This document shows positions 29,326 through 46,116 of a DNA stretch of 64,000 nucleotides, piece after piece. A model generated the notes under the pieces. It was not told where the DNA came from, did not search any database, and worked only from the letters and a program-made list of their open reading frames with translations. Each line of letters starts with the position of its first letter. Within the stretch, counting starts at the first letter, position 1. A program made the position numbers and the translations under genes. This DNA is from Luteibacter sp. UNCMF331Sha3.1 (GTDB taxonomy: Bacteria > Pseudomonadota > Gammaproteobacteria > Xanthomonadales > Rhodanobacteraceae): assembly GCF_900109915.1 (NCBI RefSeq), contig NZ_FOBU01000001.1, forward strand, positions 492,558 to 556,557. The letters run 5' to 3'.

Positions 29326-29766
29326 TCAGGCGCGGCAGAGCTTCGGGACGTCGACGAGCGCGATGAACCCGTCGTCGCGCGTGATGACGCCGCTGACCGG
29401 ATCGTCGCGTCGTTCGGCGCGTCCGGGCGGCGGAGGCGCGACGTCGTCGGGCTCGAAAGTGAGCATGTCGCCGATCACGTCGATGCGCATGCCGACCACC
29501 GTGCCGGCATCGTCGAACACGATGACGCGATGGGCGTCTTCCGCGCCGTTCTCCTGGGCGCCCTCGAGCCCGAAGCGGCGCCGGCCGTCGAGCACGGGCA
29601 CGATCTGGCCACGGAGGTTGACGATACCGAGCACGTCGTCCGGTGCACCCGGCACCGGTGTGATGTCGCCGGGCTTGATCACTTCGCGCACGCTCGCGAG
29701 GGACACCGCGTAGCGCTGCCCTTTCAGCGAGAAGCCCAGCCAGGCGCCGCGTTGGATGTCGGTCAC
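29326..29766 (-). CDS. cheW: Chemotaxis coupling protein CheW
   Basis: The 146-aa protein links chemoreceptors to the CheA kinase. It shows the CheW core: WLGFSLKGQRYAVSLASVREVI, then LGIVNLRGQIVPVLDGRRRFG, VIVFDDAGTVVGMRIDVIGDML and FIALVDVPKL. The start is GTG 29766, overlapping the previous stop as GTGA, with AAGGAA 8 bases upstream; an ATG at 29790 is an alternative that would add 8 residues. It is the second of two adjacent CheW-domain genes. A Pro/Arg-rich insert (APPPPGRAERRDD) lies in the loop before the last strands. Confidence 0.93.
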   Translation of the reverse strand: MTDIQRGAWLGFSLKGQRYAVSLASVREVIKPGDITPVPGAPDDVLGIVNLRGQIVPVLDGRRRFGLEGAQENGAEDAHRVIVFDDAGTVVGMRIDVIGDMLTFEPDDVAPPPPGRAERRDDPVSGVITRDDGFIALVDVPKLCRA

Positions 29767-30331
29767 GGACCCAGTTCCTTTTCCAGCCATTGGACGAGCG
29801 CCGTGGTACCGACCACGCCGCATTTCGGTTCGAGTGACATGCCGGCGAGCCACGGGCGCGTCGCGGCGCCGTGACGCCACTGGATCGCCTCGGGGGACAG
29901 CTCCACGGGTTCTTCGTCGACGACGCAGGCGAGTGCCCAGACGCGGTCGCGCAGGATCACCAGTGTCGATACGGGAGCGCCCCCCATGTCGGGCGACAGC
30001 ACCGCGGCAAGGTCGGCCACGCGGGCTTCGCCGCTGGGATGCCGCCAGCGACCCAGGCAGATCGGGTTGTTCGAACTGGGCGGCGACAACGGCGGCATCG
30101 GCAGGAGATGCGTCACGTCCGCCATCGGCACCGCGAGCTTGACGCCCGCCGCGACGCAGAGAAGGTATCGGGCATCGGCCGAGGTGGTGCTGCCTTCGTC
30201 GGCGGCGTTGCGCCACGGATCGATCGCCACCACCCGCACGTCGGCCACCTCGGCCTGCGCGACGGCCACGGGCGTCAGCATCTCGGCGAGATAGTCGGCG
30301 ACGATCTGCTCGGCGTCCTGCATCGCGCGCA

Positions 30332-30335
<4 letters not shown>
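29763..30335 (-). CDS. CheW-domain protein (divergent second coupling protein)
   Basis: The 190-aa protein begins with an amphipathic helix (MMRAMQDAEQIVADYLAEMLTP), a variable linker, and then a divergent CheW domain (about 70-185: ARYLLCVAAGVKLAVPMADVTHLLPM, then GRWRHPSGEARVADLAAVLSP, VWALACVVDEEPVELSP and a C-terminal amphipathic helix). It overlaps parA as ATGA and cheW as GTGA. An equivalent CheW-like gene next to parA and cheW exists in Pseudomonas and Vibrio, where in Vibrio the ParP protein with a CheW-like domain places chemosensory arrays with ParC. A similar array-localisation role is a reasonable inference given the ParA neighbour. Confidence 0.8.
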
Positions 30336-31119
<784 letters not shown>

Positions 31120-31120
<1 letters not shown>

Positions 31121-32022: not shown

Positions 32023-32759
32023 GAGAGGAACCCCTGGAGCTTGCTCTCGATGTGTCGCGGGTTGTCGCCCTGCGCGATGGAGACGAGTCCCTCGACGAGG
32101 ATTTCGCGCATCTGCGAACGCCGGCGCGCGAGGCCCTTGAGGCGCGAGGCCATCGGTAGCGCGAGCAGATTCGCCAGCCCGATGCCGTAGATCGTGGCGA
32201 CGAACGCCGCCGCGATGCCGTGGCCGAGCTTGCTCGGCTCGGCGAGGTTCTGCATGACGGACATCAGGCCCATGACGGCACCGATGATGCCCATCGTCGG
32301 CGAGTACGCGCCAGCGTTTTCGAAGACCTTGGCGGCCTCGATGTCCGTGTGCTCCCGCGCGAAAACTTCGACCTCGAGCACCGATCGCATCGCGTCGGGC
32401 TCCGTGCCGTCGACGAGCAGCTGCAGCCCTTTGCGGATGAAGGGATCGGCTTCGCGCTCGATGGCCGGTTCGAGACCGAGCAGGCCGGTACGCCGGGAAA
32501 TTTCGCTCCAGCCGACGATGCGGCTGACGAGGTTCTCGGATTCGATGTCCGGTGGGCGATAGACCCACGGCAGCATGCTCCACGCGCGCTTGAGCACGGC
32601 GCCGGGCGTCTGCACGAGCAGGGCCGCGAACGTACCGAGGAAGACGATCACGAACGCGGCCGGGTTCCAGAGGGCATCGAGGCTCGAGCCCTTGAGGATG
32701 GTGCCGACGATGATGACCACGAAGGCCAGGATCGTCCCGACGACGCTCACGATATCCAT
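32019..32759 (-). CDS. motC: Flagellar stator protein MotC (MotA family)
   Basis: The 246-aa protein is the ion-channel partner of MotD. Four transmembrane segments are visible: two at the N-terminus (DIVSVVGTILAFVVIIVGTIL and FVIVFLGTFAALLVQ) and two later (SPTMGIIGAVMGLMSVMQNL and HGIAAAFVATIYGIGLANLLALPMA). The conserved cytoplasmic loop between them (IRKGLQLLVDGTEPDAMRSVLEVEV) contacts the FliG torque helix. The shared MotA signature GAYSPTMGIIGAVMGL is intact. It begins one base after the cheA stop, so translation is likely coupled. Confidence 0.94.
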   Translation of the reverse strand: MDIVSVVGTILAFVVIIVGTILKGSSLDALWNPAAFVIVFLGTFAALLVQTPGAVLKRAWSMLPWVYRPPDIESENLVSRIVGWSEISRRTGLLGLEPAIEREADPFIRKGLQLLVDGTEPDAMRSVLEVEVFAREHTDIEAAKVFENAGAYSPTMGIIGAVMGLMSVMQNLAEPSKLGHGIAAAFVATIYGIGLANLLALPMASRLKGLARRRSQMREILVEGLVSIAQGDNPRHIESKLQGFLS

Positions 32760-32760
32760 A

Positions 32761-34815
32761 TCAGACAGCCATCCTCAGTGTCGGCAGCACCTGGCCGCCG
32801 TCGTCGGCCAGGCCGGCGAGATCGAGTACGAGCGCGATGCGTCCGTCGCCCGTGATGGTGGCACCCGCGATGCCCGGCACGTCCTTGAGGAAAGGGCCGA
32901 GCGGCTTGGCCATGACGTCTTCGCGGCCGATCACCTCGTCGACGAGACAGCCGAGCGTCTGGTGCCCGATCTGCACCACCACGACGTGCCCGCCCCTGCC
33001 TGCCCCGCCCGCCCAGCGACCGAGGTCGGCGAGCGGCAGCGCACGCTGGCGATGGGCCGCGACGGTGCGTCCGTCGAGCTCCTGGATCTGGCCCGGCACG
33101 AGTTCGAACACTTCGGCCACGTTCGACATGGGCAGTGAAAGCAGACGCGAGCCGACGCGCACCATCAGCACGCGGAGGATCGCGAGGGTCAGCGGCACCG
33201 AGAGACGGACGGTGCTTCCATGTCCCACGCGCGAATCGATCGACAGTGTGCCGCCAAGCTCGACGATCTTGGTCTTGACCACGTCCATGCCGACGCCACG
33301 ACCGGAAATGTCGGAGACCTGGCTGGCCGTGGAGAAGCCCGGACGGAACACGATCTCGTAGCACTCGCGCTCGTCGAGGCGAGCGGCCTGCTCTTCATCG
33401 AGCAAGCCCTTTTCCACGGCCTTGCGACGCAGGACCTCGGGGTCCATCCCCTTGCCGTCGTCGGTGACGGTAATGACGATGCGGTCGCCGAACTGTCCGG
33501 CCGCGAGGCGAACGGTGCCGTTACGCGATTTGCCTGCGCGCTCCCGCGCCTCGGGCATCTCGATGCCGTGGTCGACCGCGTTGCGCAGCAGGTGCACGAG
33601 CGGATCGGCCAGCGCCTCCACCACCGTGCGGTCGATGTCGGTGTCCTCGCCCTCGGTGACGAGCTCGATTTCCTTGCCCAGCTGCCGCGCGAGGTCGCGC
33701 ACGATGCGCGGGAATCGCGAGAACAGCTTGCCGACGGGCTGCATGCGCATGCGCAGCACGGCGTTCTGGAGGTCTTCCGCCACGCGCTCGAGTTCGCCGA
33801 TCGCGCGTTCCATCGGATCGTTGGTGCCGCGCGGCGCGAGGTTGGCGAGACGGTTACGGACGAGCACGAGCTCGCCCGCGGCGTCGACCAGTCCATCCAG
33901 GCGGTGGGTGTCGACGCGGACCGTGGTGTCGGCTGCGGCGGTGGCGCGCTTTTCGGTGGGTTTGGCGGGTTTCGGCGCAGACGCCGCTTCGGCGTGCGGG
34001 ACCGGGACGACCGGCGTCGCAGCCAGGTCCCCTCCTGCGGGCGCGCCCGCAGCCGGCACGGCGGCCGCGATAGAAGCCGGTGCGACGGCGCCGGGGGCGG
34101 CCGTGCCGTGGAGGCTGTCGAGCAGCGCTTCGAATTCGTCGTCGCTGATCGCGTTCGGATCGGCGGGAGGCGGCGGCGCGCTCACTACCACTGCAGGCGC
34201 GATGTCCGCCGCTTCGGTGCCGGGCGCGCCGGTGCCGTAGAGCGAATCGAGAAGGGCTTCGAATTCGTCGTCGGAGATGGTGCCCGACGATGCGGGCGCC
34301 GGCGCGCGATCGCTGCGCGCCGCGTCGAGCATCGCTTCGAACTCGTCCTCGATCGGATCGTGCGGTGCCGCCGACGGCTGCGCGGGCGCGGTGACGGGGA
34401 CCGCCAGCGCGACGGGCGCGGCGGAGGCCGCGCGACCCGGAATCAGCAGACGGTCGAGCAGCGAGCGCGGCGCCGGCTCGATCGGGACGGCGCCGTCCGC
34501 GGCGCGCATCATGTCGTTGAGCAGGTCGAGCGACTCCAGCAGCGCGTCCATGAAGCCGGCATCGAGCACGATCGCACCGTTGCGGGCCTCGTTGAGGAGG
34601 TCCTCGGCGCGATGGCACAGCTCGACCATCGGGTTCAGGCCAAGAAAGCCCGCCCCGCCCTTGACGGTATGGAACGCACGGAAGACCGCGTTCAGCAGCT
34701 CGACGTCGCCCGGCGACGACTCGAGGTCCACGAGCTGTTCGCCCAGGCTCTCGAGCAGTTCGCGCGCTTCGATCAGGAAGACGTTGAGAAGCTCGTTGTC
34801 CAGCTCGACGCTCAC
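32761..34815 (-). CDS. cheA: Chemotaxis histidine kinase CheA, P2 replaced by a repeat-bearing linker
   Basis: The 684-aa kinase autophosphorylates and passes phosphate to CheY. Domain order: a single Hpt domain with phospho-His49 (AFHTVKGGAGFLG), a 200-residue Pro/Ala-rich linker, the dimerisation helices (VRVDTHRLDGLVDAAGELVLVRNRL), an HATPase domain (LVHLLRNAVDHGIE, DDGKGMDPE and GRGVGMDVV), and a C-terminal CheW domain. I do not see a folded P2 domain. Instead the linker holds three related motifs at about 155-165, 180-193 and 223-236 (TISDDEFEALLDSLYG and relatives) that resemble the CheY-binding ends of FliM and CheZ. The start is GTG 34815, five bases after the cheZ stop. cheB does not follow; motC does. 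Confidence 0.95.
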   Translation of the reverse strand: MSVELDNELLNVFLIEARELLESLGEQLVDLESSPGDVELLNAVFRAFHTVKGGAGFLGLNPMVELCHRAEDLLNEARNGAIVLDAGFMDALLESLDLLNDMMRAADGAVPIEPAPRSLLDRLLIPGRAASAAPVALAVPVTAPAQPSAAPHDPIEDEFEAMLDAARSDRAPAPASSGTISDDEFEALLDSLYGTGAPGTEAADIAPAVVVSAPPPPADPNAISDDEFEALLDSLHGTAAPGAVAPASIAAAVPAAGAPAGGDLAATPVVPVPHAEAASAPKPAKPTEKRATAAADTTVRVDTHRLDGLVDAAGELVLVRNRLANLAPRGTNDPMERAIGELERVAEDLQNAVLRMRMQPVGKLFSRFPRIVRDLARQLGKEIELVTEGEDTDIDRTVVEALADPLVHLLRNAVDHGIEMPEARERAGKSRNGTVRLAAGQFGDRIVITVTDDGKGMDPEVLRRKAVEKGLLDEEQAARLDERECYEIVFRPGFSTASQVSDISGRGVGMDVVKTKIVELGGTLSIDSRVGHGSTVRLSVPLTLAILRVLMVRVGSRLLSLPMSNVAEVFELVPGQIQELDGRTVAAHRQRALPLADLGRWAGGAGRGGHVVVVQIGHQTLGCLVDEVIGREDVMAKPLGPFLKDVPGIAGATITGDGRIALVLDLAGLADDGGQVLPTLRMAV

Positions 34816-34820
34816 GGTGC

Positions 34821-35468
34821 TCAGAAGCCGAATTCGCTGAGCAGGCGATCCACTTCGTCCTGGCTCACCTTGTCGGCCGCCGGTGCCGCGCCGCCGGCGA
34901 GCGAGCCCGTCAGCCGCACCAGTTCGACCAGGGACGATTCCACCTTGGCCATGAACGCCTCCACCTGCGCGACGCGCTGGCCCGAGAGGTCCTGCCACGA
35001 CTGCGCCTCGACCATTTCGCCGAAGCCGATGTCGCAGCTCTGCGCGAAGTCGCCGACGCGCACGGCGAGCGACGTCGCGTGGGTCGCGAACGCGGGGTCG
35101 GCATGATCGAGCACCAGCACCTCGTCGGCCTGGCGCGCGAGCGCCTGCGCCTGCGGGCGCAGCTTTTCGCTGAAATCGAGCGTGCGATGCGCGGCCTGCG
35201 AGCTCATTTCGAGCACGTCGCGGAGGTGCTTGCGCGCGTCGCTCATGTTGCCCGGCACGCCATCGGTGGAAATGTCGGCGGCCAGGCGGCGGGCGGACTC
35301 GTGCAGGTCGCGCGCGAGGTGGCCGAGCGCCATGAACAGGTGCTGTTCGCGCGTGCGCAGCAGGTTGTCGAGCGCCTTCTCGAAGGCGACGCTGTCGTCG
35401 GCGTCGAGCAACTCGCGCAGTTCGGGAGCCACGTCGTGGCCGCTGGAGAGCATCGTGTTCATCGTCAT
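34821..35468 (-). CDS. cheZ: CheY-P phosphatase CheZ
   Basis: The 215-aa, mostly helical protein accelerates dephosphorylation of CheY-P. The catalytic helix motif AQSWQDLSGQRVAQVEAFM corresponds to the QDLTGQ region of E. coli CheZ that inserts a Gln into the CheY active site. The C-terminal KVSQDEVDRLLSEFGF matches the CheY-binding tail of E. coli CheZ. A Gly/Ala/Pro linker (GSLAGGAAPAADK) separates them. It is two bases upstream of the cheA unit and two bases after cheY. CheZ is limited to beta- and gammaproteobacteria with this flagellar type. Confidence 0.94.
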   Translation of the reverse strand: MTMNTMLSSGHDVAPELRELLDADDSVAFEKALDNLLRTREQHLFMALGHLARDLHESARRLAADISTDGVPGNMSDARKHLRDVLEMSSQAAHRTLDFSEKLRPQAQALARQADEVLVLDHADPAFATHATSLAVRVGDFAQSCDIGFGEMVEAQSWQDLSGQRVAQVEAFMAKVESSLVELVRLTGSLAGGAAPAADKVSQDEVDRLLSEFGF

Positions 35469-35470
35469 CC

Positions 35471-35860
35471 TTAGCCGGCAGCCGCGGCGAGCCGCTCGAA
35501 GATCTTGTCCAGTTTTTCCTTCAGCGTGACTGCCGTGAACGGCTTGACCACGTAGCCGTTCACGCCACTCTGCGCGGCGGCGATGATCTGGTCGCGGTTG
35601 TTCTCGGCCGTGACCATCAGCACCGGCATCGACTTCAGACCGGCGTCGGCGCGGATGGCGCGCAGCAGGTCGATGCCCGTCATGTTGGGCATGTTCCAGT
35701 CGGTGACCACGAGGTCGAAGGGTTGCGCACGCAGCATCGCGAGCGCCGCGTTGCCGTCTTCCGCCTCCTGGATCAGGGTGTTGGTGAAGCCGAGCTCCAC
35801 CAGCAGGTTCCTGACGATGCGTCGCATGGTGGAGAAATCGTCCACCACGAGGATCTTCAT
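35471..35860 (-). CDS. cheY: Chemotaxis response regulator CheY
   Basis: The 129-aa single-domain receiver has Asp7/Asp8 (VVDDFS), phospho-acceptor Asp54 (VVTDWNMP), Thr84 (LMVTAENN) and Lys106 (VVKPFTA). Phospho-CheY binds FliM to switch motor direction. [14 protein letters not shown] near the start and the N-terminal ATG at 35860 match the family; the longer open frame to 35968 is discarded. The ribosome binding site is poor (GGACAAGAAC before the ATG). It follows fliA by 38 bp and leads the cheYZA-motCD unit. Confidence 0.96.
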
Positions 35861-35898
35861 GTTCTTGTCCAAAACTCGTCTCCGCCTTGCTGCAGCGT

Positions 35899-36630
35899 TT
35901 ATTGCTTTTCTTTCCAACCCGACATGCGTGCGCGGAGGCGGATCAGGGCCTGGCCGTGGATCTGGCACACCCGCGATTCGCTCACACCCAGCACCGCACC
36001 GATTTCCTTCAGGTTGAGCTCTTCATCGTAGTACAGCGACATGACCAGCTTCTCGCGCTCGGGCAGTCCGTCGATGGACTGCGCCAGCGCGTCGCGCAGG
36101 CCCGCCTGTTCGAACAGGCCTTCCGGACCCGCGGCGTCCGGGTCGACCACGTCGATCGCCGAACCCTCGTCGCCTTCCGGCGCCGTCAGGCTCAGCAACC
36201 GCGCGCTCGCCGCGTCGGCCAGGATCTGGTTGTATTCCATCGCGTCGATACCGAGCCGCTTCATCACTTCCATGGCATCGGCGTCGCCGCCCGTTTCGTT
36301 CTCGATCTGCCTCGTTACCTCCGCCACCTCGCGCAACTTCCGGTGGACGGAGCGCGGGGTCCAGTCCGTCTTGCGCAGTTCGTCCAGCATGGCGCCACGA
36401 ATGCGGATGCCCGCATAGGTCTCGAAGCTGGCCGCGCGAGTCGGCGAGTAATTTCTTGCGGCCTCCAGCAAGCCGATCATCCCGGCCTGCATGAGGTCGT
36501 TCGCATCCACGCTCGGCGGCAGCCTGCCCATCAGGTGATAGGCGATGCGGCGCACCAGCGGCGCGTGTGTTCGTACCAGTTGATCCGGAGGAATCCGTGT
36601 GATCTCAAGGTATTCGGTCGCGACGCTCAC
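35899..36630 (-). CDS. fliA: Flagellar sigma factor sigma-28 (FliA)
   Basis: The 243-aa sigma factor directs late flagellar and chemotaxis promoters. Region 2 is [36 protein letters not shown] with [19 protein letters not shown]. Region 3 follows ([11 protein letters not shown]), and region 4 ends with [28 protein letters not shown], a helix-turn-helix that reads the -35 box. The GTG start at 36630 overlaps fleN as GTGA. Its predicted target, a TAAA-N15-GCCGATAA promoter, is present before fliC in this window. No anti-sigma factor flgM is in the window. Confidence 0.96.
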
Positions 36631-37502
36631 AGTGGCAGCCCTCCCCCCATGTGGGACCGCTCGGCGAAAAAGCCGATGCGGCCCTGTACCCGGGGCTCGG
36701 GTTCACCCCATGTATCGACCGACCTGGCCAGATTCTTGAATCCGACCGCGGATCGGCTGCTCGGCCACGCGTCGACCACCGCCGACTGGCGGCGAATGGC
36801 CTGGCGCAGGTATTCGTCGTGCGGGACCATGCCCATGAAATCGAGCGACACGTCGAGGAAGCGGTTGGTCACCCGCGACAGCTTCTCGAACAGCTGCCGG
36901 CCTTCCTGTGCGTGGCGCACCATGTTGGCGACGATGCGGAAGCGGTTGACCCCGAACTCGCGGCTCATCACCTTGATCAGCGCGTAGGCGTCCGTCAGCG
37001 AGGCCGGTTCGTCGCAGACCACCACGACGACTTCGTCGGACGCGGCGGCGAACATCGAGACGCTGTCCGAGATGCCGGCCGCGGTGTCGACGATGAGGTA
37101 TTCCGGCGGCAGCGTGTATTCGTCGAACGCGCGGATGACCGCCGCGTGCTCGATGTTGGGCAGCTGCGCCATGCGGCGTGCACCCGAGGTGGCCGGGATG
37201 ACCTTCAGGCCGTGAGCGGCCGAGAGGACCAGGTCTTCGATCGCGCACTCGCCCTCGAGCATGTGGCCGAGGTGGCGGGTGGGCTGGAGGCCGAGCAGTA
37301 CGTCGATGTTCGCCATGGCGAGGTCGGCGTCGAGCAGCAGGACGTCGCGTCCGCCCATGGCGAGCGCCATGCCGAGATTCACCGCCACCGTGGTCTTGCC
37401 CACGCCGCCCTTGCCGCCCGCGATGGCGATGCTGCGGGTGGGCCGACGGTCGGCGAGCCAGTTGAGTCCGGCGGCCTGGGTGGTATCGACGTGTGTGCTC
37501 AT
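36627..37502 (-). CDS. fleN: Flagellar number regulator FleN (FlhG), MinD-like ATPase
   Basis: The 291-aa ATPase has the deviant Walker A SIAIAGGKGGVGKTTVAVNLG, switch I LLLDADLAMANIDVLLGL and Walker B YLIVDTAAGISDSVSMF. Near the N-terminus, AAGLNWLA carries the short helix resembling the DQAxxLR FlhF-activating motif (weak here). FleN/FlhG works with FlhF to set flagellar number and inhibits FleQ in Pseudomonas. The ATG at 37502 has no clear ribosome binding site; an in-frame GTG lies 12 bases upstream (37514). It lies 53 bp after flhF and overlaps fliA. Confidence 0.94.
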   Translation of the reverse strand: MSTHVDTTQAAGLNWLADRRPTRSIAIAGGKGGVGKTTVAVNLGMALAMGGRDVLLLDADLAMANIDVLLGLQPTRHLGHMLEGECAIEDLVLSAAHGLKVIPATSGARRMAQLPNIEHAAVIRAFDEYTLPPEYLIVDTAAGISDSVSMFAAASDEVVVVVCDEPASLTDAYALIKVMSREFGVNRFRIVANMVRHAQEGRQLFEKLSRVTNRFLDVSLDFMGMVPHDEYLRQAIRRQSAVVDAWPSSRSAVGFKNLARSVDTWGEPEPRVQGRIGFFAERSHMGGGLPL

Positions 37503-37555
37503 GGAGGAAGTCACTGCCGTAAGAGGGGTCTGGTTCGTGTGGAGGGAAGGCGCGT

Positions 37556-38887
37556 TCACGCCAGGACCGGCGTGGCGATGCCGAAGCGCTCGGCGAGGAT
37601 GGCGTCGTCGGGCTCCTCGGTGCGCTGCTTCAGCAGCTGCGCCGCGAGGCAGACCAGCTTGCGGGCGTCGGCCGAGGCGATGTCCTCGGGAACGCGCTGG
37701 CCGTCCGTGGTGTAGTCGAGCGGCAGGCCGTGGCGGATGACCGCCGAGAGCGCGCCGCCGATCAGCGGCGCCTCGTCCAGCTTGGTGAGGATCGCGCTCT
37801 GCGGCGCCAGGGGTGCGTAGGCGCGGATGGCGTTGTCGATCGCCTGCGACTGCGCGTTGGCGGCGAGCACAAGACAGACGCGGACGTCGGAGGTCGCGCG
37901 CAAGGTCTCGAACTGCTCCTGCAGTTTCGGGTCGTTGCCGGCCAGCCCCGCGGTGTCGACGAGCACCGTGTGGCGGCCGCGCAGCTGCAGCAGCACGTTG
38001 CGCAGGCTGACGGCGTCGTGCGCGTTGAACACGCGCACGCCGAGGAGGCGGCCGTAGTGCTCCAGCTGCGCGCCGGCGCCGATGCGGTACTGGTCGGCGC
38101 TGATCAGCGCGACGTTGGACGCCCCGTGCCGAAGGACCGCGCGCGCGGCGAGCTTGGCGATGGTGGTGGTCTTGCCCACGCCCGTCGTGCCGACGAGCGC
38201 GGTGACGCCGCCACCGACGGTGTCGAAGTTGCGACCGCTGGTGCGGATGTTGCGCGACAGGATGCCCAGCGGCAGGTAGCGCGCCTGTTCGGCCGTCATG
38301 CCGGGCGGCAGCTCGGCGCACAGCGCGCGGGCCACGTCGCCGTCGATGCCCAGACGGGTCATCTCGCGCAGCACGCGGGCGCGCAGCGGCTGGTCGCGGT
38401 CCATCTGGTTCCAGGCCAGTGTCGAGAGCTGCACTTCCAGCATCTCGCGCAGGTTGTTGATCTCGGCACGCACGCCGTTCACGGCGGCGTCGTTGTTCGG
38501 CGACACGGTCGCTGCGCGGACCACGTCGGCGACGCTCGCGGCGAGCGCGGCGCTGGACTGGCGCTGCGGCGCGGCGGTCGCCGGAGGGGCGGTCTTCGCC
38601 GCGCGCTCCACGGCGGCGGCCGTGGCGGCGCGGGCCTGATCGATGCGCGCGGCACGCTCGAGGTCGTCGCGCTGGGCACGGATCGGCGCGTCTTCGCGGC
38701 GGGCCGGCGCTTCGACGCCGAAGCCGGCTTCGCGCACCAGGGCTTCGTCGTAATCGAGGGCGGCGATGATTTCGATGCCGTCGTCCATGCGACGCGTCGA
38801 CAGGATCACCGCGTCGGGACCCTGCTCGTCACGGACCTGGCGCATCGCCTGGCGCATGTCGGGAGCAACGAATCGTTTGATTTTCAT
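37556..38887 (-). CDS. flhF: Flagellar placement GTPase FlhF (SRP-type)
   Basis: The 443-aa protein has a basic N-domain start (MKIKRFVAPDMRQAMRQVRDE), a disordered Ala-rich B region (about 65-130), an N-domain helix bundle, and an SRP-family G domain. The G domain has G1 ALVGTTGVGKTTTIAKLAA, then ISADQYRIGA, VLVDTAGLAGND and AILTKLDEAPLIGGALS. FlhF marks the pole for flagellum assembly; in this group that implies polar flagella. The closest family members have 400-500 aa. It is separated from flhA by 93 bp that hold a GC-rich hairpin (CGCCCG at 38952 with CGGGCG at 38964) but no obvious sigma-54 site. Confidence 0.95.
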   Translation of the reverse strand: MKIKRFVAPDMRQAMRQVRDEQGPDAVILSTRRMDDGIEIIAALDYDEALVREAGFGVEAPARREDAPIRAQRDDLERAARIDQARAATAAAVERAAKTAPPATAAPQRQSSAALAASVADVVRAATVSPNNDAAVNGVRAEINNLREMLEVQLSTLAWNQMDRDQPLRARVLREMTRLGIDGDVARALCAELPPGMTAEQARYLPLGILSRNIRTSGRNFDTVGGGVTALVGTTGVGKTTTIAKLAARAVLRHGASNVALISADQYRIGAGAQLEHYGRLLGVRVFNAHDAVSLRNVLLQLRGRHTVLVDTAGLAGNDPKLQEQFETLRATSDVRVCLVLAANAQSQAIDNAIRAYAPLAPQSAILTKLDEAPLIGGALSAVIRHGLPLDYTTDGQRVPEDIASADARKLVCLAAQLLKQRTEEPDDAILAERFGIATPVLA

Positions 38888-38980
38888 GCCTTCGATCCTG
38901 TCTTCGTCCGGGCGCCCTCTTCCGGGACACCACCATGTTCGTCCGGTCCGACGCCCGATTCTCCGGGCGGCGTCTCACTC

Positions 38981-41095
38981 TTATCGTCCGAGGGCCGTCA
39001 CCAGCTTGACGCGCCGGTTGTCCGGAACCTCGTTGTAGGCGAGTACATGCAGGTTCTGGGCCACATGGCGCACGAAGCGCGAAAGCCATGGGCGAAGCGC
39101 CGGGGAAACCAGCAGCACGGCCGGTTCGCCCGCCGCTTCCTGCCGCCGTGCGGCCTCGGCCACCGACTGTTGCAGCCGGTCGGCGAGACCCGGCTCCACG
39201 GCCGCGCCCGCCGGACCACCGCCCTGCAGCGACTGCAGGAGGATCTGCTCGAGATCCGGCGCCAAAGTAATGACAGGGACCTCGCTGCCGAGGCCCGCGA
39301 TCTCCTGCACGATCTGGCGACCGAGCGTGACGCGCACGGCGGCGGCGAGGACGCCCGGGTCCTGGCTCTGGCCCGCGTGCTCCGCCAGCGATTCGACGAT
39401 GCCGCGGAAATTGCGGATGGGCACGCGCTCGGCGAGCAGGTTCTGCAGCACCTTGACCACCGCGCCCAGCGACAGGCGCTTCGGCACGAGGTCTTCCACG
39501 AGCTTCGGCGTCTGCTGCGCGAGACGGTCCAGCAGCTGCTGCACGTCCTGATGGCCGATGAGTTCGTGCGCGTGGTTCTGCAGGATGTGGGAGAGGTGCG
39601 TGGCGATCACGGTCGCCGGATCGACGACGGTGTACCCGAGCGTCTGCGCATGCTCGCGCAGGCCGGGCTCGATCCAGACCGCGTCGAGCCCGAAGGCCGG
39701 GTCGCGCGTGGCGATGCCGTTGATCGTGCCGTGCACGCGGCCCGGGTCGATCGCGAGCATGCGCTCGGTATGGATTTCCGCCTCGCCCATCGGCACGCCC
39801 ATCAGCGAGATGCGGTAGCCGTGCGGCACCAGATCGAGGTTGTCGCGGATGTGCACCGAGGGCACCAGGAAGCCGAGCTCCTGCGACAGCTTGCGGCGCA
39901 CCGACTTGATGCGCGCCATCAGCTCGCCGCCCTGCGCCTTGTCCACGAGCGGGATCAGGCGGTAGCCGACTTCGAGGCCGATGGTGTCGACCTGCGCGAC
40001 GTCTTCCCACGACAGCTCGAGGCGTTCGGCCGGCGGCGCCGACTCCAGCGCGAGCTCGGTGCCGGGCGCGCCCGCCCCCGCCCCGGTGGCGATGCCGGCG
40101 GCGTCGTCGAGCTGCTTGCGATGCAGCTTCCACGCGCCGAAGCCCGTGATGCCGGCGAGGATCAGGAACGGGAGGTTCGGCATGCCCGGGATGAGGCCCA
40201 TGGTGCCGAGCACGGCCGCCGCGACGCCGAGCGCCTTGGGCTGGCCGAACAGCTGACCCATGACGTGCTTGCCCATCTCCTGCGACTTCGACACGCGCGT
40301 GACGATCACGGCGGTGGCGATGGAAAGCATCAGGCCCGGCACCTGGGCGACCAGGCCGTCGCCGATGGTCAACAGCGTGTAGGTGCGCGCGGCTTCGCCG
40401 GCCGACAGACCGTGCTGCAGCATGCCGATGAAGAAGCCGCCGATGATGTTGATCGCCAGGATCAGGATGCCGGCCGTGGCGTCGCCGCGGACGAACTTCG
40501 ACGCACCGTCCATCGAGCCGTAGAAGTCGGCTTCCTCGCGGACTTCCTGGCGACGCTCACGCGCCTGCTCCTGTGTCAACAAACCGGCGTTGAGATCGGC
40601 GTCGATCGCCATCTGCTTGCCGGGCATGGCGTCGAGGGTGAACCGGGCCGTGACCTCCGAGACGCGCGTGGCGCCCTTGGTCACCACCACGAAGTTGATG
40701 ATGGTGAGGATCGCGAAGACGACGAAGCCGACGGCGAAGTTGCCGCCGATGACGAACTCGCCGAACGCCTCGATCACCTTGCCGGCCGCGCCCGGGCCGT
40801 TGTGGCCGTGCAGCAGGACGACGCGGGTCGACGCGATGTTCAGCGCCAGGCGCAGCAACGTGGCGAACAGCACCACCGTCGGGAACGACGCCAGCTCAAG
40901 CGGCCGCATCACGTACATCGTGGCCAGCAGGATCACCAGCGACAGCGCGATGTTGAAGGTGAACAGCAGGTCGAGCATGAACGGCGGCAGGGGCAGCATC
41001 ATCATGCCGAGCATGATCAGCATCGCCACCGGCGCCGCGACGCCGCGGCGGCCGATCTGGCGGAACGTGCCCATGAAGCTGGTGGAGGCTGCCAT
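38981..41095 (-). CDS. flhA: Flagellar export gate protein FlhA
   Basis: The 704-aa protein has eight N-terminal transmembrane helices beginning after SFMGTFRQIGRRG, and the conserved FHIPEP-family segment MYVMRPLELASFPTVVLFATLLRLALNIASTRVVL. A cytoplasmic loop is next (ARFTLDAMPGKQMAIDADLNAGLLTQEQARERR), then a four-subdomain C-terminal export platform (from about 360). It forms the nonameric ring of the export gate. The start is ATG 41095, two bases after the flhB stop. A plus-strand ORF spanning the gene (37730-41116) is a codon shadow. Confidence 0.97.
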   Translation of the reverse strand: MAASTSFMGTFRQIGRRGVAAPVAMLIMLGMMMLPLPPFMLDLLFTFNIALSLVILLATMYVMRPLELASFPTVVLFATLLRLALNIASTRVVLLHGHNGPGAAGKVIEAFGEFVIGGNFAVGFVVFAILTIINFVVVTKGATRVSEVTARFTLDAMPGKQMAIDADLNAGLLTQEQARERRQEVREEADFYGSMDGASKFVRGDATAGILILAINIIGGFFIGMLQHGLSAGEAARTYTLLTIGDGLVAQVPGLMLSIATAVIVTRVSKSQEMGKHVMGQLFGQPKALGVAAAVLGTMGLIPGMPNLPFLILAGITGFGAWKLHRKQLDDAAGIATGAGAGAPGTELALESAPPAERLELSWEDVAQVDTIGLEVGYRLIPLVDKAQGGELMARIKSVRRKLSQELGFLVPSVHIRDNLDLVPHGYRISLMGVPMGEAEIHTERMLAIDPGRVHGTINGIATRDPAFGLDAVWIEPGLREHAQTLGYTVVDPATVIATHLSHILQNHAHELIGHQDVQQLLDRLAQQTPKLVEDLVPKRLSLGAVVKVLQNLLAERVPIRNFRGIVESLAEHAGQSQDPGVLAAAVRVTLGRQIVQEIAGLGSEVPVITLAPDLEQILLQSLQGGGPAGAAVEPGLADRLQQSVAEAARRQEAAGEPAVLLVSPALRPWLSRFVRHVAQNLHVLAYNEVPDNRRVKLVTALGR

Positions 41096-41097
41096 CG

Positions 41098-42240
41098 TCA
41101 GTTATCCATTCTGTAGGGACCCATGAGGTCCGGGTCGATCTCCTGCCGCGGCAGGTCGGGCGGCAGGTCGCCCATGGCGATCGCCTGCTTCAGCCGGAAC
41201 ACGTAGGCCAGGATCTGGGCCACCGCGACGTACAACGCCGAGGGGATTTCGCGTCCGATTTCCGTCGTGTGATACAAGGCGCGTGCCAACGGAGCCGATT
41301 CCACGACGGGAACCTTCGCGCCACCCGCCACATCGCGGATCTGCTGGGCGATCACGTCCATGCCCTTGGCCACCACGCGGGGCGCTCCCATGCGGTTCTC
41401 GTCGTATTTCAGGGCCACGGCGAAGTGGGTCGGATTGGTCACGATCACGTCGGCCGTCGGCACGTCTTCCATCATCCGGCGGCGGGCCATCTGGTGCTGC
41501 ATCTGACGAATTTTTGACTTCAGCTCGGGACTGCCCTCGTTTTCCTTGTGCTCGTCCTTCACCTCCTGCTTCGACATCTTCATCTTCTTGGTGAAGCTGA
41601 ATTTCTGCCACGGCGCGTCGACCAGGGCGATGGCCCCGAGGGCGCAGGCGAAGATCATCGAGGCATGGCCGAAGATGCCGAACGCCTTGGCGATACCGTC
41701 GCTGACCGGGCCGGTACCCACCGTGTACATCTCCCGGGTGGATCGCATCAGGAACCACGCGAGGGCGCCCCCGATCAACAGCAGCTTGAGCACCGACTTG
41801 CCGAGTTCGACGAGCCCGTTGACCGACACGAGGCGCGAGAAACCCTTGATGGGATCGAGCCGGTCGAACTTGGGAATCAGCGCCTGGCCGGAGAAGTTCA
41901 GGCCACCCATGAGCGCCGGCGCGGCGATGGCGGCCACCATGGTCGCGGCGAACACGGGGCCGAGCAGCTTCAGGCCTTCGAGCGCGGCCGTCATCAGCGC
42001 GCGATAGATGCCGTTCGCGGCGAACAGGTCGTCGCGCCCGTAGTGCAGGCCCACGCGCATGATGTTCGCCGCGTGCACGGCCATCTGGTCGCGCGACGCG
42101 ATCAGGGCGAAGACGCCGGAGAGCACGACGATGGCGGTCGACAGATCGCGCGAGCGCGGAAGGTCGCCCTTCTCGCGCGCTTCGCGAAGGCGTTTTTCAC
42201 TAGGGGCTTCGGTCTTGTCTTCCTTATCGGTCTCGCTCAT
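41098..42240 (-). CDS. flhB: Flagellar export switch protein FlhB
   Basis: The 380-aa protein has a charged N-terminus (MSETDKEDKTEAPSEKRLREAREKGDLPRS), four transmembrane helices, and a cytoplasmic domain with the self-cleavage motif NPTH (VIVTNPTHFAVALKY). Cleavage between Asn and Pro switches export from rod/hook to filament substrates. Its partner in the switch, FliK, is encoded in the same island. It starts at ATG 42240, five bases after fliR. The C-terminus is unusually acidic (PRQEIDPDLMGPYRMDN). Confidence 0.96.
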   Translation of the reverse strand: MSETDKEDKTEAPSEKRLREAREKGDLPRSRDLSTAIVVLSGVFALIASRDQMAVHAANIMRVGLHYGRDDLFAANGIYRALMTAALEGLKLLGPVFAATMVAAIAAPALMGGLNFSGQALIPKFDRLDPIKGFSRLVSVNGLVELGKSVLKLLLIGGALAWFLMRSTREMYTVGTGPVSDGIAKAFGIFGHASMIFACALGAIALVDAPWQKFSFTKKMKMSKQEVKDEHKENEGSPELKSKIRQMQHQMARRRMMEDVPTADVIVTNPTHFAVALKYDENRMGAPRVVAKGMDVIAQQIRDVAGGAKVPVVESAPLARALYHTTEIGREIPSALYVAVAQILAYVFRLKQAIAMGDLPPDLPRQEIDPDLMGPYRMDN

Positions 42241-42245
42241 GGCGG

Positions 42246-43013
42246 CTACCTCCCGATAAGCTGACGCATGGTGTTCCACGCGTCGGTCTGCAGCGAATCG
42301 AACGCGCCCGGGAGGGCGCGCAGCGCGAGCCAGACGGCCAGCAGGCCGAGGCAGATCGTGATGGGAAAGCCCACCGCGAACAGGTTCATGGAGGGTGCCG
42401 AGCGACTGATCGCGCCGAAGCCAAGGTTGACCACGAGCGTGGCCGTCAGTGCGGGCAGCGCCACGCGGACGGCACCGGCGAACAGGTGGCCGGCGAATTC
42501 GAGCACGCCCCATACGCCGTTGGCGCCGATGCCCTGCTGTCCCACCGGCAACGTCCGGAAGCTGTCGGCGAGCAGCGAAATCAGCTGCAGATGGCCGTTC
42601 ATCACGAGGAACAGCAAGGTCACCAGCATCATGTAGAACTGGCTGAGCACGGACACCGTGCCGCCGATGCCCGGGTTGATCGTCTCGGCGAAACCGAGGC
42701 TCATCGCCTGCGACACGATCTGACCGCCGAACGACACCGCCTCGAACACCAGCTTGAGGACGAAGCCGAGGGCCGCGCCCACGAGCACCTGCTGCGCGAG
42801 CGTGCCGATACCCTGCGCCGACAGCGGGCGGATATCGAGGGGCGCCAGCGGCGCGAGCGCCATCGTCAGAAGCAGCGCCAGGCCCACGCGGATGCGTGCG
42901 GGGATCGTCGTCGCTCCCAGCACGGGCGCGACGAGAAGCAGGCCGGAGATGCGGGCCAGTGCCCAGCACGCGCCACCGACCCACCCTTCGAGCTGGGCGA
43001 GGTCGATCGGCAT
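42246..43013 (-). CDS. fliR: Flagellar export protein FliR
   Basis: This 255-aa membrane protein of the export gate (FliP5Q4R1 complex) has about six hydrophobic helices and the family segment FVLKLVFEAVSFGGQIVSQAMSLGFAETINPGIG, followed by FYMMLVTLLFLVMNGHLQLI. The ATG at 43013 overlaps the fliQ stop as TGATG; the open frame to 43082 is not used. It is followed by flhB after five bases. Confidence 0.95.
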   Translation of the reverse strand: MPIDLAQLEGWVGGACWALARISGLLLVAPVLGATTIPARIRVGLALLLTMALAPLAPLDIRPLSAQGIGTLAQQVLVGAALGFVLKLVFEAVSFGGQIVSQAMSLGFAETINPGIGGTVSVLSQFYMMLVTLLFLVMNGHLQLISLLADSFRTLPVGQQGIGANGVWGVLEFAGHLFAGAVRVALPALTATLVVNLGFGAISRSAPSMNLFAVGFPITICLGLLAVWLALRALPGAFDSLQTDAWNTMRQLIGR

Positions 43014-43282
43014 CAACGGACCGCCTGGGGCAGGTTCTCGATCAGCGTGCGGGTGAACTGCACCAGCGTGCGCAGCATCCACGGGCCGGCGATGATCATC
43101 ACCAGCGCCATGGAGATGAGCTTCGGGATGAAGCTCAGCGTCTGCTCGTTGATCTGCGTCGCCGCCTGGATCATGCCGATGAGCAAGCCGACCGCGAGCG
43201 CGGTGAGCAGCAGCGGCGCGCCGATCAGCATCGCGATATGCAGTGCCTGCTGGCCGAAGCCGATGACCGACTCGGGCGTCAC
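43013..43282 (-). CDS. fliQ: Flagellar export protein FliQ
   Basis: This 89-aa, two-helix membrane protein contributes four copies to the export gate. The sequence [55 protein letters not shown] shown in part here covers both helices and the conserved [11 protein letters not shown] turn. It starts at GTG 43282, overlapping the fliP stop as GTGA, and ends overlapping fliR. The much longer open frame in this register (to 44317) is a shadow of fliP and fliO. Confidence 0.95.
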
Positions 43283-44028
43283 TGGAAGAAACTCCCCGCG
43301 AGCGTGCCCAGCAGGAGCGTCCACCCGTCCACGAGCACGAAGAGCATGATCTTGAACGGCAGCGAGATGATCATCGGCGAGACCATCATCATGCCCATCG
43401 ACATCAGGACGGACGCGACGACGAGGTCGATGATGAGGAACGGGATGAAGAGCAGGAAGCCCATCTGGAACGCGGTCTTCAGCTCGCTCGTGACGAAGGC
43501 GGGCAAGGCCACGCGGTACGGCACGGCGTCCTTGTTGGCATAGGGCTGCTCGCCGGCCAGCTTCGTGAAGAGCTGCAGGTCCGGCTCGCGCGTCTGTTCC
43601 AGCATGAAATGGCGGAACGGGCCGGCGGCCAGCGGCAGGGCGTCCTGCACGCTCATCTGGCCGTCCATGTACGGCTTGATGCCGGCGTCGTACGCCTTGT
43701 TCATCACCGGCGTCATGACGAACAGCGTCAGGAAGAGCGAGAGGCCGAGGATCACCTGGTTGGGCGGCGTGCTGTTGGTGCCGAGCGCCTGGCGCAGGAA
43801 ACCGAGCACGATGATGATGCGCGTGAACGAGGTCATCATCAGCAGGATGGCCGGCAGCGCGGTCAGCGCCGTCATCAGCGCCAGCATCTGGATCGACAGC
43901 GACCACGTCTGGCCGCCGTTGGCGGCCGGCTGCACATTGAGCAGCTGGATGCCCGGCGGATCGGCCGCGAAGGCCGGGAACGGCACGAGCAGGAGCATCA
44001 GGACGACGAGCCAGGGCCAGCGCTTCAT
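43279..44028 (-). CDS. fliP: Flagellar export protein FliP
   Basis: The 249-aa protein has a cleavable signal peptide ([21 protein letters not shown]) and four membrane helices. Family motifs include [41 protein letters not shown] and the C-terminal [26 protein letters not shown]. FliP forms the pentameric core of the export gate. The ATG at 44028 overlaps fliO as ATGA and is chosen over a GTG at 44040 that would add MEAP. Confidence 0.96.
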
Positions 44029-44450
44029 GGGCGCTTCCACTGGGAGAGCACGTCGCGGAAGCCACGAGCGACGGGCGCGGTGGCCGAAGGCGCCGCGTCG
44101 TCCTGCACGGGCGTTTCCAGCACGTGCAGCGTACGCAGGCCGCCGGTCGGCGAGGCGCCGACGAGGATCTGCGTACCGCCGACTTCGAGCAGCATGACCT
44201 TTTCCTTGATGCCCACGGGCATCGATTCGACGACGCGGATCTTTCGGCCGCCCGGACGCACACGCGCCTGGGCACGGCGGCTGATCCAGCCGACGAAGAA
44301 GATAAGCGCCACGACACCGGCCAGGCTGATCGTGACGCGGAGGAGTTCCGCGCCCGAATCGACCGCCGGGGCGGCGGCCGGAGCCGCCATCAGGGCGCAG
44401 GGAAGGAAGCCGCCGGCGAGGGCGGCGACGGCACGACGCACGCGGCTCAC
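44025..44450 (-). CDS. fliO: Flagellar protein FliO
   Basis: The 141-aa protein has an N-terminal signal-like segment, one main transmembrane helix ([24 protein letters not shown]), and a small cytoplasmic beta domain ([42 protein letters not shown]), typical of FliO. FliO stabilises FliP during gate assembly. The start is GTG 44450, overlapping fliN as GTGA. Confidence 0.92.
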
Positions 44451-44782
44451 CGCAGCTTGCGGACGCGCTCGGCCGGACTGATCACGTCGGTCAGCCGGAT
44501 GCCGAACTTCTCGTTGATGACGACGACTTCGCCGTGGGCGACGAGCGTGCCGTTCACGAACACATCGAGCGGCTCGCCGGCCGCGCGGTCGAGTTCGACC
44601 ACCGAACCCTGGTTGAGCTGGAGCAGGTTGCGGATGCTGATCTTCGTACGACCGACTTCCATCGCCATGGTGACCGGGACGTCGAGGATGACGTCGAGGT
44701 TCACTTCGTTGCCGAGGCCGATGGACGAGGCCAGCGAGGCATCGCTGGTGTCGATATCTTCGAGGGTGGTGGGTTCGTTCAT
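44447..44782 (-). CDS. fliN: Flagellar motor switch protein FliN
   Basis: The 111-aa C-ring protein has an acidic N-terminal tail and one SpoA domain ([52 protein letters not shown] in essence, ending [19 protein letters not shown]). The start at ATG 44782 matches the family; the open frame to 44920 would run through the promoter region. Unlike in many genomes, fliN is not joined to fliM. A 317-bp gap with a perfect palindrome and a sigma-54 site lies between, so fliNOPQR-flhBA appears to be its own transcription unit. Confidence 0.95.
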
Positions 44783-44824
44783 GTCCGTTCCAGTGAGAGA
44801 CGTTGCCGGGTGCAGGCTATGTGA

Positions 44825-44840
44825 AGCAAGCGGCGTGCCA
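44825..44840 (-). promoter_or_regulatory. Sigma-54 promoter for fliN
   Basis: Minus strand TGGCACGCCGCTTGCT, an exact match to TGGCAC-N5-TTGC(A/T). The -12 element lies about 43 bases before the fliN ATG. RpoN plus FleQ is the expected regulator, encoded about 9 kb upstream in the same island. Confidence 0.85.
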
Positions 44841-45020
44841 CGGGAACCGGGGGTCGAACGGAGGGCGAAAATGGCGTCGCGTCGGGCTTGCGGAACTGAG
44901 GAAGGCGTCGCATAAGGCATGTGACGCAGTGCGACAGTCAGAAACCTGACGCTCGACGGCAGTTAGTCACCAAGACGGGCAATTGACAGTCGAGCATTCC
45001 CACTGTCCGGTCAAAACAAA

Positions 45021-45089
45021 GGTGGGAGCCAGCCTGCTGGCGATGGGTGCTTGCGGCAAGCACCCATCGCCAGCAGGCTGGCTCCCACC
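45021..45089. repeat. REP-like palindrome, copy 3, perfect 34-bp arms
   Basis: The arms 45021-45054 and 45056-45089 are exact reverse complements around a single central base. The ends are GGTGGGAGCC and GGCTCCCACC, and the inner part is GCGATGGGTGCTTGC. The outer arm is CAGCCTGCTGG rather than the CGCGCTCGCGC of the other copies, with the opposite arm changed to match. It sits 11 bp past the fliM stop. Confidence 0.95.
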
Positions 45090-45099
45090 AGAGCGAACT

Positions 45100-46116
45100 T
45101 CAGACCGGCTCGGCGAGCGGCTGGATGGCCGGGGCGGCCTGGCGCGGCGCACTGCGCCGGAGCAGCGAATCGAACTGAACGGCCTTGTTGCCGTTGAAGT
45201 TCGCCATGCGCCCGCGGAAGATGGGCACGTCTTCGGCAAAGATCGTCGCCGTCTCCGGCAGGCTGATCGGAATGACATCGCCCTTGCGCAGGTGCAGGAA
45301 GTCGCCGATGGTCAGGCGGGCTTCCGCGAGCATCGAGGTGATCTCGACCTCGGCGTCGAGGATTTCCTCGTGCAGGTTCTGGATCCAGCGATCGTCGCGC
45401 TCGGCGCGGTCGCTCTGCACGCCCGCGTCGAGCAGTTCGCGGATGGGCTCGACCATCGAGTACGGCAGGGTCAGGTGCACTTCGCCGCCACCGCCGTCCA
45501 GCTCGATGTGGAAGCGCGACACCACGACGGTTTCCGTCGGACTGACGATGTTCGCGAACTGCGGATTGATCTCCGAATTCATGAACTCGAACTGCATCCG
45601 GAGCACCGGGGCCCAGGCTTCGGCCATCGCCGTGAAGGCTTCCTGCAGCACGATCTGGATGACGCGGTTCTCGGTCGGCGTGAAGTCGCGGCCCTCGATA
45701 CGCGCGTGGTACCGGCCGTCGCCCCCGAAGAAGTTGTCGATGACGGTGAAGACCAGACGCGGCTCGAACACCATCAGGGCGGTGCCGCGCAGCGGCTTGA
45801 TGCGAATGAGGTTGAGGTTGCTCGGCACGGCCAGCGAGTGGACGTACTCGTTGAACTTGGTCATCTTCACGCCGAGGACCGACACCTCGCACGACTTGCG
45901 CAACACGTTGAACAGGTTGGCGCGGAAATAGCGCGCGAAACGGTCGTTGACCATTTCCAGCGTCGGCAGACGGCCGCGAACGATGCGGTCCTGCTGGGTG
46001 AAGTCGTAATCCTGGATGCCACCGGGCGGCGGCAGCTCGAGTTCGGTCTCGACCGCGCCACCTTCCACGCCGGCGAGCAGCGCGTCGATCTCTTCCTGGG
46101 TGAGGATGTCGCTCAT
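45100..46116 (-). CDS. fliM: Flagellar motor switch protein FliM
   Basis: The 338-aa C-ring protein begins with the CheY-P-binding segment ILTQEEIDALLAGVEG, a flexible linker, then a CheC-like middle domain (about 45-230, containing the GGxG region FFGGDGRYHARIEGR) and a C-terminal SpoA domain (about 255-325). The ATG at 46116 is the canonical start; the open frame to 46173 overlaps fliL. It follows fliL by 16 bp under the shared sigma-54 promoter. Confidence 0.97.
   Translation of the reverse strand: MSDILTQEEIDALLAGVEGGAVETELELPPPGGIQDYDFTQQDRIVRGRLPTLEMVNDRFARYFRANLFNVLRKSCEVSVLGVKMTKFNEYVHSLAVPSNLNLIRIKPLRGTALMVFEPRLVFTVIDNFFGGDGRYHARIEGRDFTPTENRVIQIVLQEAFTAMAEAWAPVLRMQFEFMNSEINPQFANIVSPTETVVVSRFHIELDGGGGEVHLTLPYSMVEPIRELLDAGVQSDRAERDDRWIQNLHEEILDAEVEITSMLAEARLTIGDFLHLRKGDVIPISLPETATIFAEDVPIFRGRMANFNGNKAVQFDSLLRRSAPRQAAPAIQPLAEPV

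Follow-up and report, generated by a model that had tools for sequence, protein, structure and literature searches.

The P2 domain of CheA kinases (PF07194, PF09078) is one folded domain between P1 and P3, with the presumed task of keeping the response regulator CheY near P1. According to the accessible part of a survey by Berry, Andrianova, and Zhulin (2023; PMC10542144), about half of CheA proteins (~52%) have no P2 and carry linkers that are unstructured in AlphaFold models. That part of the survey proposes no docking peptide, and the words "motif," "FliM," and "disordered" were absent from its published main text in a term search (PMC10782961). Two kinds of described elements are relevant here. 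First, FliM, CheZ, and FliY carry CheY-binding peptides, each with a polar N-cap, acidic residues, and a hydrophobic-[DE]-x-L-L helix that ends a flexible arm; for the N terminus of Bacillus subtilis FliY, the CheY-binding motif is stated in the accessible text of PMC8809382. Second, the LID of Vibrio CheA is described in the available portions of two papers (PMC5706961, PMC7534058) as a linker element between P2 and P3 that binds the AIF domain of ParP and occurs only together with ParC and ParP.

We analyzed a 64,000-nucleotide stretch of the Luteibacter sp. UNCMF331Sha3.1 genome (NZ_FOBU01000001.1, positions 492,558 to 556,557; hereafter the window). Its cheA encodes a kinase with no detectable P2 and with three FliM/CheZ-like peptides in the linker between P1 and P3. 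By analogy with FliM and CheZ, this suggests that repeated peptides of this type do the CheY docking in the P2-less CheA of this bacterium and of many gammaproteobacterial relatives. We regard it as fairly probable that CheA of class F6 docks CheY via linear linker peptides and not via a folded P2.

FliM/CheZ-like peptides in the CheA linker

The first-pass annotation of the window had reported an acidic-LL peptide shared by the FliM N terminus, the CheZ C terminus, and three CheA linker sites. All five peptides were present at the positions given there (Table 1), and the site at residues 155 to 168, described as a weaker copy, was indeed degenerate (motif 1; I for S/T and M-L for L-L). Motifs 2 and 3 conformed to the helical FliM/CheZ-type pattern [ST]-x-[DEQ]-[DEQ]-hydrophobic-[DE]-x-L-L in a matrix built from FliM and CheZ only, and both are predicted helices. 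The CheA consensus, [ST][DE][DE]EF[DE]xLLDx[LMI][HY]G, is longer than the FliM motif. It differs from the FliM, CheZ, and FliY peptides in being internal, in occurring as one to four repeats, and in continuing as D-x-[LMI]-[HY]-G; it also has Phe at the position taken by Ile or Val in FliM and by Val in CheZ. By eye, it appears closest to the CheZ tail. Enteric CheZ holds LLDSL.

We considered whether the resemblance arose by chance. The FliM/CheZ matrix was trained on 8 distinct FliM N termini and 38 distinct CheZ tails, the window's own included, and the three CheA motifs were its three top-scoring linker windows (8.9, 8.9, and 0.5; next, -1.8). When the linker was shuffled 20,000 times, 0.4% of the shuffles equaled the best score, none the second, and 0.2% the third. 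A pattern picked after the motifs had been seen, [DE][DE]-hydrophobic-[DE]-x-[LF][LF], occurred at 32 sites on both strands of the 4.1-Mb genome (20 for the reversed pattern); 4 of these sites, all within 12 kb, were FliM, CheZ, and CheA (twice).

Each of the three copies was under constraint. Across 23 CheA from a single genus, among them the window CheA, the ratio of nonsynonymous to synonymous substitution rates (dN/dS) was 0.063 to 0.083 in the motifs (Table 1), 0.062 in P1, 0.070 in the P3-P5 core, and 0.335 in the remaining linker, and no insertions or deletions fell inside the motifs. Since the motif values match the catalytic core and lie far below the rest of the linker, the motifs are not chance occurrences, and together with the shuffles and genome-wide counts these values led us to set chance resemblance aside. 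In an alignment of 13 CheA from many families (alignment A1; the others are 48 to 70% identical to the window CheA), motif 2 residues E184, F185, L188, L189, D190, and G194 were invariant, and the linker elsewhere was gap-rich.

The peptides were also compared with solved structures. The FliM N terminus best matched PDB chain 4iga_B (E value, 0.59), a FliM peptide that forms a separate chain in the structure; we take this entry to be a CheY complex with a Thermotoga maritima-like FliM peptide. The CheA peptide had no relative at an E value of <0.5, and the CheZ tail had no useful match in this database, which covers chains of at least 20 residues.

P2 and the motif among CheA proteins

The same annotation had seen no folded P2 in this CheA, and none was found by Pfam, by a P2 profile built from related CheA, by profile-profile comparison, or in an AlphaFold2 model. 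With Pfam, PF07194 and PF09078 had no match in the window CheA at E values up to 1. The two models also had no match anywhere in the genome, despite a P2-like stretch in its second CheA, so the Pfam test is weak alone. Among the 43 CheA of a second alignment (A2), PF09078 matched one, and PF07194 was absent from the matches listed (25 of 32 families). The second CheA (G000:C7:640343-641599; row L001) is F7-like, and its P2-like stretch is our own reading of a region missed by Pfam; it carries no motif.

We therefore built a P2 profile from 19 seed linkers, taken from this second CheA and its kin, and compared it with the motif across CheA proteins, a survey that had been suggested in the first-pass annotation. 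From 230 CheA-like frames, 4 identical frames and 3 without P1 were removed, leaving 223 rows; the F6 rows had been gathered for their similarity to the window CheA, and rows L199 to L278 are a hand-picked subset of the matches. The profile matched 25 rows at an E value of <1e-4 (the 19 seeds included) and 4 more weakly. These 29 rows, out of 68 without the motif, were all motif-free, and the profile had no match at an E value of <0.05 in the 155 rows with the motif. The 223 rows thus comprised 155 with the motif, 29 with P2, none with both, and 39 with neither.

Because L192, one of the motif rows, duplicates the genome's own CheA in truncated form, 154 of the motif CheA are distinct. Ten of the 155 rows had one copy, 37 had two, 95 had three, and 13 had four; the weaker first copy recurred in many of them. 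The FliM/CheZ matrix was tried as a counter at a score of 4, and it fired on P2-match rows (L138, L209, and L127) and missed F6 motifs. Copies were therefore counted with a CheA-derived matrix, the threshold of which was set from shuffled linkers.

Profile-profile comparison by HHalign of 60 motif linkers with four other linker sets gave Prob values of 0.9 or less; in a control, the F7-like set aligned with the enteric P2 set (Prob, 58.7 local and 86.4 global). Because other pairs of P2-like sets reached only 0.1 to 4.0, HHalign is not very sensitive. The AlphaFold2 model (43 input sequences; mean predicted local distance difference test score [pLDDT], 80.5; predicted template modeling score, 0.59) consisted of P1, a linker that is largely disordered apart from three short helices, and P3 to P5, with no P2 fold. 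The three helices are exactly the motifs (ten-residue pLDDT, 67 to 80). After the profile, HHalign, and AlphaFold2 results, the idea of a P2 missed by Pfam was set aside. Matches to three other families were likewise discarded: SHOCT and KH_5 were below cutoff in the window CheA, and GemA was matched only in other CheA rows.

The helices could instead serve the kinase itself, through intramolecular or array contacts (P4, P5, or CheW) or as a SHOCT-like module. Invariant F, L, and D residues would suit any docking helix, and weak SHOCT matches occurred in 25 of the 43 CheA of alignment A2. Against this, the SHOCT match of the window CheA reached 17 bits (cutoff, 27), the modeled helices are short and flanked by low-confidence linker, and a copy number of one to four is unlike a fixed structural contact. 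We consider this explanation very improbable.

In a FastTree phylogeny built from 205 CheA cores, with 18 near rows (L005 to L022) left out, 134 rows, all with the motif (L192 among them), fell on one side of the best-fitting split (local support, 99), which was chosen for its fit to the motif. Three motif rows lay outside this clade (Acidithiobacillus L104, G207, and G210); the tree program warned of long branches, L104 included. The motif is thus retained across the clade, which includes CheA of Vibrio, Photobacterium, Shewanella, Pseudomonas, Marinobacter, Dyella, and Stenotrophomonas. By tree position and gene content, the window CheA groups with the Vibrio, Pseudomonas, and Shewanella CheA of clusters of the fliA-cheY-cheZ-cheA-mot-parC-parP-cheW type. 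We take this clade as class F6, following the accessible portions of PMC7184735 and PMC7534058. Five genomes encode both a motif CheA with no P2 and a separate P2-like CheA with no motif: the window's own, Dyella (L063), Stenotrophomonas (L093), G048, and G084. A record titled as a Klebsiella pneumoniae metagenome-assembled genome (MAG) also contains an F6-type CheA (L074) that has two motifs and 47% identity to the window CheA; this record is probably mislabeled or a mixed bin.

Proposed CheY docking and alternative roles of the motif

The proposal that the linker copies are docking peptides replacing P2 was partly borne out: no P2 was detected, each copy is constrained, and motif and P2 are mutually exclusive over the 223 rows. 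CheY as the partner, the CheY face involved, and the exchange between holders are what we infer by analogy. Each copy would form an N-capped amphipathic helix, [ST]-[DE]-[DE]-E-F-[DE]-x-L-L-D, tethered on the disordered Pro/Ala linker that connects the phospho-histidine domain P1 to the dimerization domain P3. The resemblance to FliM and CheZ would place this helix on the alpha4-beta5-alpha5 face of CheY. CheY would thereby be kept near P1, with several copies per chain, and double that per dimer, raising its local concentration. A single surface would then serve motor, phosphatase, and kinase, each CheY having one holder at a time; because that surface is shared, phosphorylated CheY would have to leave the kinase before reaching the motor or the phosphatase. 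P2 and the motif array would share location and presumed task, the former as one folded domain and the latter as several copies of a short helix along a linker that is otherwise disordered.

Conservation on the CheY side also speaks for peptide docking. Read by eye against Escherichia coli CheY and in its numbering, the window CheY has N91, R92, Q94, V103, Y106, V108, F111, K117, and K119. Q94, Y106, F111, and K119 were present in all of the 124 motif loci in which cheY is next to cheZ, V103 in 122, and K117 in 115; these counts are of loci and not of species. In 16 further motif loci with cheY placed elsewhere, Q94 occurred in 14, V103 in 16, and K117 in 11, and when motif loci with a CheZ tail were grouped by family, Q94 was found in every family (63 of 63). 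As stated in the accessible part of Ortega et al. (PMC7184735), R92K, Q94N, V103A, and K117E changes occurred when an F6-type CheY became the partner of an F7 CheA; the first three were mapped to the "P2 face." Given that the F6 CheA studied here lack P2, the earlier partner at this face may have been a peptide array. CheY position 91 and position 7 of the CheZ tail were also compared; they are Asn and Arg in the window and Lys and Asp in most other loci (CheY-CheZ pairs by locus: K-D, 94; N-R, 25; K-E, 7; K-A, 3; plus single cases). Covariation at this pair was rejected as a strong signal, as the N-R state is confined to two families and may be one joint event.

Several observations weigh against peptide docking. 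The P2 profile likely misses rows that look P2-bearing among the 39 with neither element (Chromobacterium L134 and Firmicutes), and its presumed identity as P2 comes from the HHalign match to enteric P2 (Prob, 58.7) and from our own reading. As the motif is found in one clade plus three outliers, its exclusion of P2 rests on few independent events. N94 and A103 without K117 also occurred in all 9 cheY-cheZ loci, betaproteobacterial by record title, of rows with neither element, so positions 94, 103, and 117 are no clean mark of a switch from peptide to P2. There is also no clean P2 group for CheY, because the four P2-labeled CheY rows sit in loci that also hold a motif CheA. The positive two-hybrid pair of Shewanella oneidensis CheY3 and CheA3 (PMC7666153, accessible part) counts in favor, together with the motifs in all four Shewanella loci of our sample, which are from other species, but the pair proves nothing about the linker, since P1 alone can bind CheY. 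FliM peptides favor phosphorylated CheY ~20-fold (PMC7355467, accessible part), which is the wrong direction for a kinase dock that should favor unphosphorylated CheY. In the CheA motif, this preference may be altered by the Phe together with the added D-x-[LMI]-[HY]-G.

A further point against concerns the LID, which shares with the motifs both the linker and the CheA class and is absent from the first-pass annotation. In this alternative, the motifs are CheA-LID and bind the CheW-like AIF domain of ParP, thereby fixing the array of receptors to the pole, as described for Vibrio. The position, ParP binding, and ParC/ParP-only occurrence reported for LID in the consulted portions of PMC5706961 and PMC7534058 speak for it, and a same-strand ParA was present in 48 of 61 motif loci and in none of 33 motif-free loci with at least 5.5 kb downstream, the 33 being other CheA classes. 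In addition, the motifs are the only invariant or near-invariant runs between residues 135 and 299 in alignment A1, and the window has candidates for both ParC and ParP.

Thirteen of the 61 motif loci, by contrast, had no ParA in the available downstream stretch. In nine of these 13 genomes, no ParA was >39% identical to the window's, which is the paralogue level elsewhere; in 12 control genomes that also encode a motif CheA, identity to the ParC candidate reached 47 to 57%. ParP alignment gave no match or CheW-like matches only in six of the nine (G070, G250, G332 [L094], G333 [L090], G334 [L109], and G335 [L104]), yet these kept one to three motifs. Of the remaining three, G237 had a clear full-length ParP match, and G081 and G228 had weak ones. 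LID is thus reported only with ParC and ParP and has ParP as its partner, whereas the motifs also occur in six genomes with no match to either gene at the thresholds used (E values, 1e-15 and 0.001; some of the six are drafts or MAGs). Within these thresholds and for this mixture of genomes, the motifs appear to outlive ParC and ParP, and because of these six genomes, ParP binding is unlikely to be their whole role. The Vibrio CheA in our sample (L076) had three motifs and no P2, by eye or by profile, so at least one motif may be part of LID. On balance, we think it unlikely that the motifs are LID in the sense of this alternative.

Another possibility is that CheY is not the main receiver docked by the motifs, which would instead prefer others such as CheB or CheV or would take up several by turns. 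Classical P2 docks both CheY and CheB (PMC10542144), and Vibrio cholerae has four CheV (PMC7534058), as given in the parts of these papers at hand. The likeness of the motif is to FliM and CheZ, both CheY partners, and the window keeps its motifs with no cheB between cheA and the motA-like gene. We consider this possibility quite improbable, and CheY docking remains the reading that we favor.

Linker peptides of other kinds were seen outside the F6 rows. Nine short-linker betaproteobacterial CheA, with no P2 by profile and no F6 motif, carry [DE]Wxx L[HY]xx[VL][TS] (L103, L105, L107, L108, L112, L114, L125, L139, and L134, a second CheA). This peptide occurred in no row outside the 39 with neither element and in none of 44,600 shuffles; Tibeticola L122, in the same class of rows, lacks it. 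It is possibly another docking peptide. Among Campylobacterota, the linkers of L095, L097, L099, and L130 contain EVEAEI[EQ]RL[LI], repeated in Sulfuricurvum, and a fifth CheA (L092) does not.

A doubtful but wider version of the proposal is that P2-less CheA dock CheY by clade-specific peptide arrays (E-F-E-x-L-L in F6; DWxxL[HY]xx[VL][TS] in the nine betaproteobacterial CheA; EVEAEI[EQ]RL[LI] in the four of Campylobacterota), with kinase, phosphatase, and motor competing for one CheY face, in F6 through one recognition code. If docking by the F6 array is true, it would explain the choice of CheY in Vibrio, Pseudomonas, Shewanella, and the Lysobacterales relatives, would place kinase, phosphatase, and motor in direct competition for CheY, and would recast the CheY changes at the "P2 face" as published in the accessible part of PMC7184735. 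Earlier work in which the linker of F6 CheA was handled as P2 or LID may in fact have involved a CheY dock. A search of open-license full text, judged by titles and the starts of abstracts, found no paper on CheA linker peptides, and the motif letters occurred in 0 papers; most subscription journals lie outside this collection. What is new would be a known type of CheY peptide in a new place, repeated, and with a proposed domain-replacing function.

Gene cluster of the window

The motif CheA belongs to a minus-strand flagellar/chemotaxis cluster (Table 1) that comprises fliM, a FliA-domain sigma factor, cheY, cheZ, cheA, motA-like and motB-like genes, a ParA-like ATPase, a CheW-like protein with the ParP signature, and cheW. 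The open reading frames that separate fliM from the sigma factor gene look like flagellar genes.

Table 1. Positions in the window of the features discussed in the text
Feature	Position	Strand	Description
cheA	32761..34815	-	684 aa; P1-linker-P3-P4-P5; Pfam Hpt, H-kinase_dim, HATPase_c, CheW
CheA linker, residues 108-296	33928..34494	-	27% Ala, 15% Pro; mostly pLDDT <50 outside motifs
Motif 1 (weaker copy), IEDEFEAMLDAARS, CheA 155-168	34312..34353	-	predicted helix 154-168; dN/dS 0.083
Motif 2, SDDEFEALLDSLYG, CheA 181-194	34234..34275	-	predicted helix 182-193; dN/dS 0.063
Motif 3, SDDEFEALLDSLHG, CheA 224-237	34105..34146	-	predicted helix 225-235; dN/dS 0.067
cheZ	34821..35468	-	PF04344; C-terminal SQDEVDRLLSEFGF at 34824-34865
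cheY	35471..35860	-	129 aa; PF00072, NF007901
fliM	45100..46116	-	PF02154, TIGR01397; start, MSDILTQEEIDALLAG; N-terminal TQEEIDALLAG at 46069-46101
ParA-like ATPase, ParC candidate	30332..31120	-	PF13614
ParP candidate, CheW-like	29763..30335	-	WR...RPWLAGM signature; PF01584 below cutoff; aligns with ParP candidates of other clusters (alignment A3)

A third CheA of the genome (G000:C10:479746-480771) lies ~12 kb outside the window and is very long, with an open frame of 2205 aa; it is presumably ChpA-like. Within the window (32019-34815), the motA-like gene directly follows cheA, with no cheB between them. A gap of ~1 kb separates cheA and motA in 5 of the 13 loci listed.

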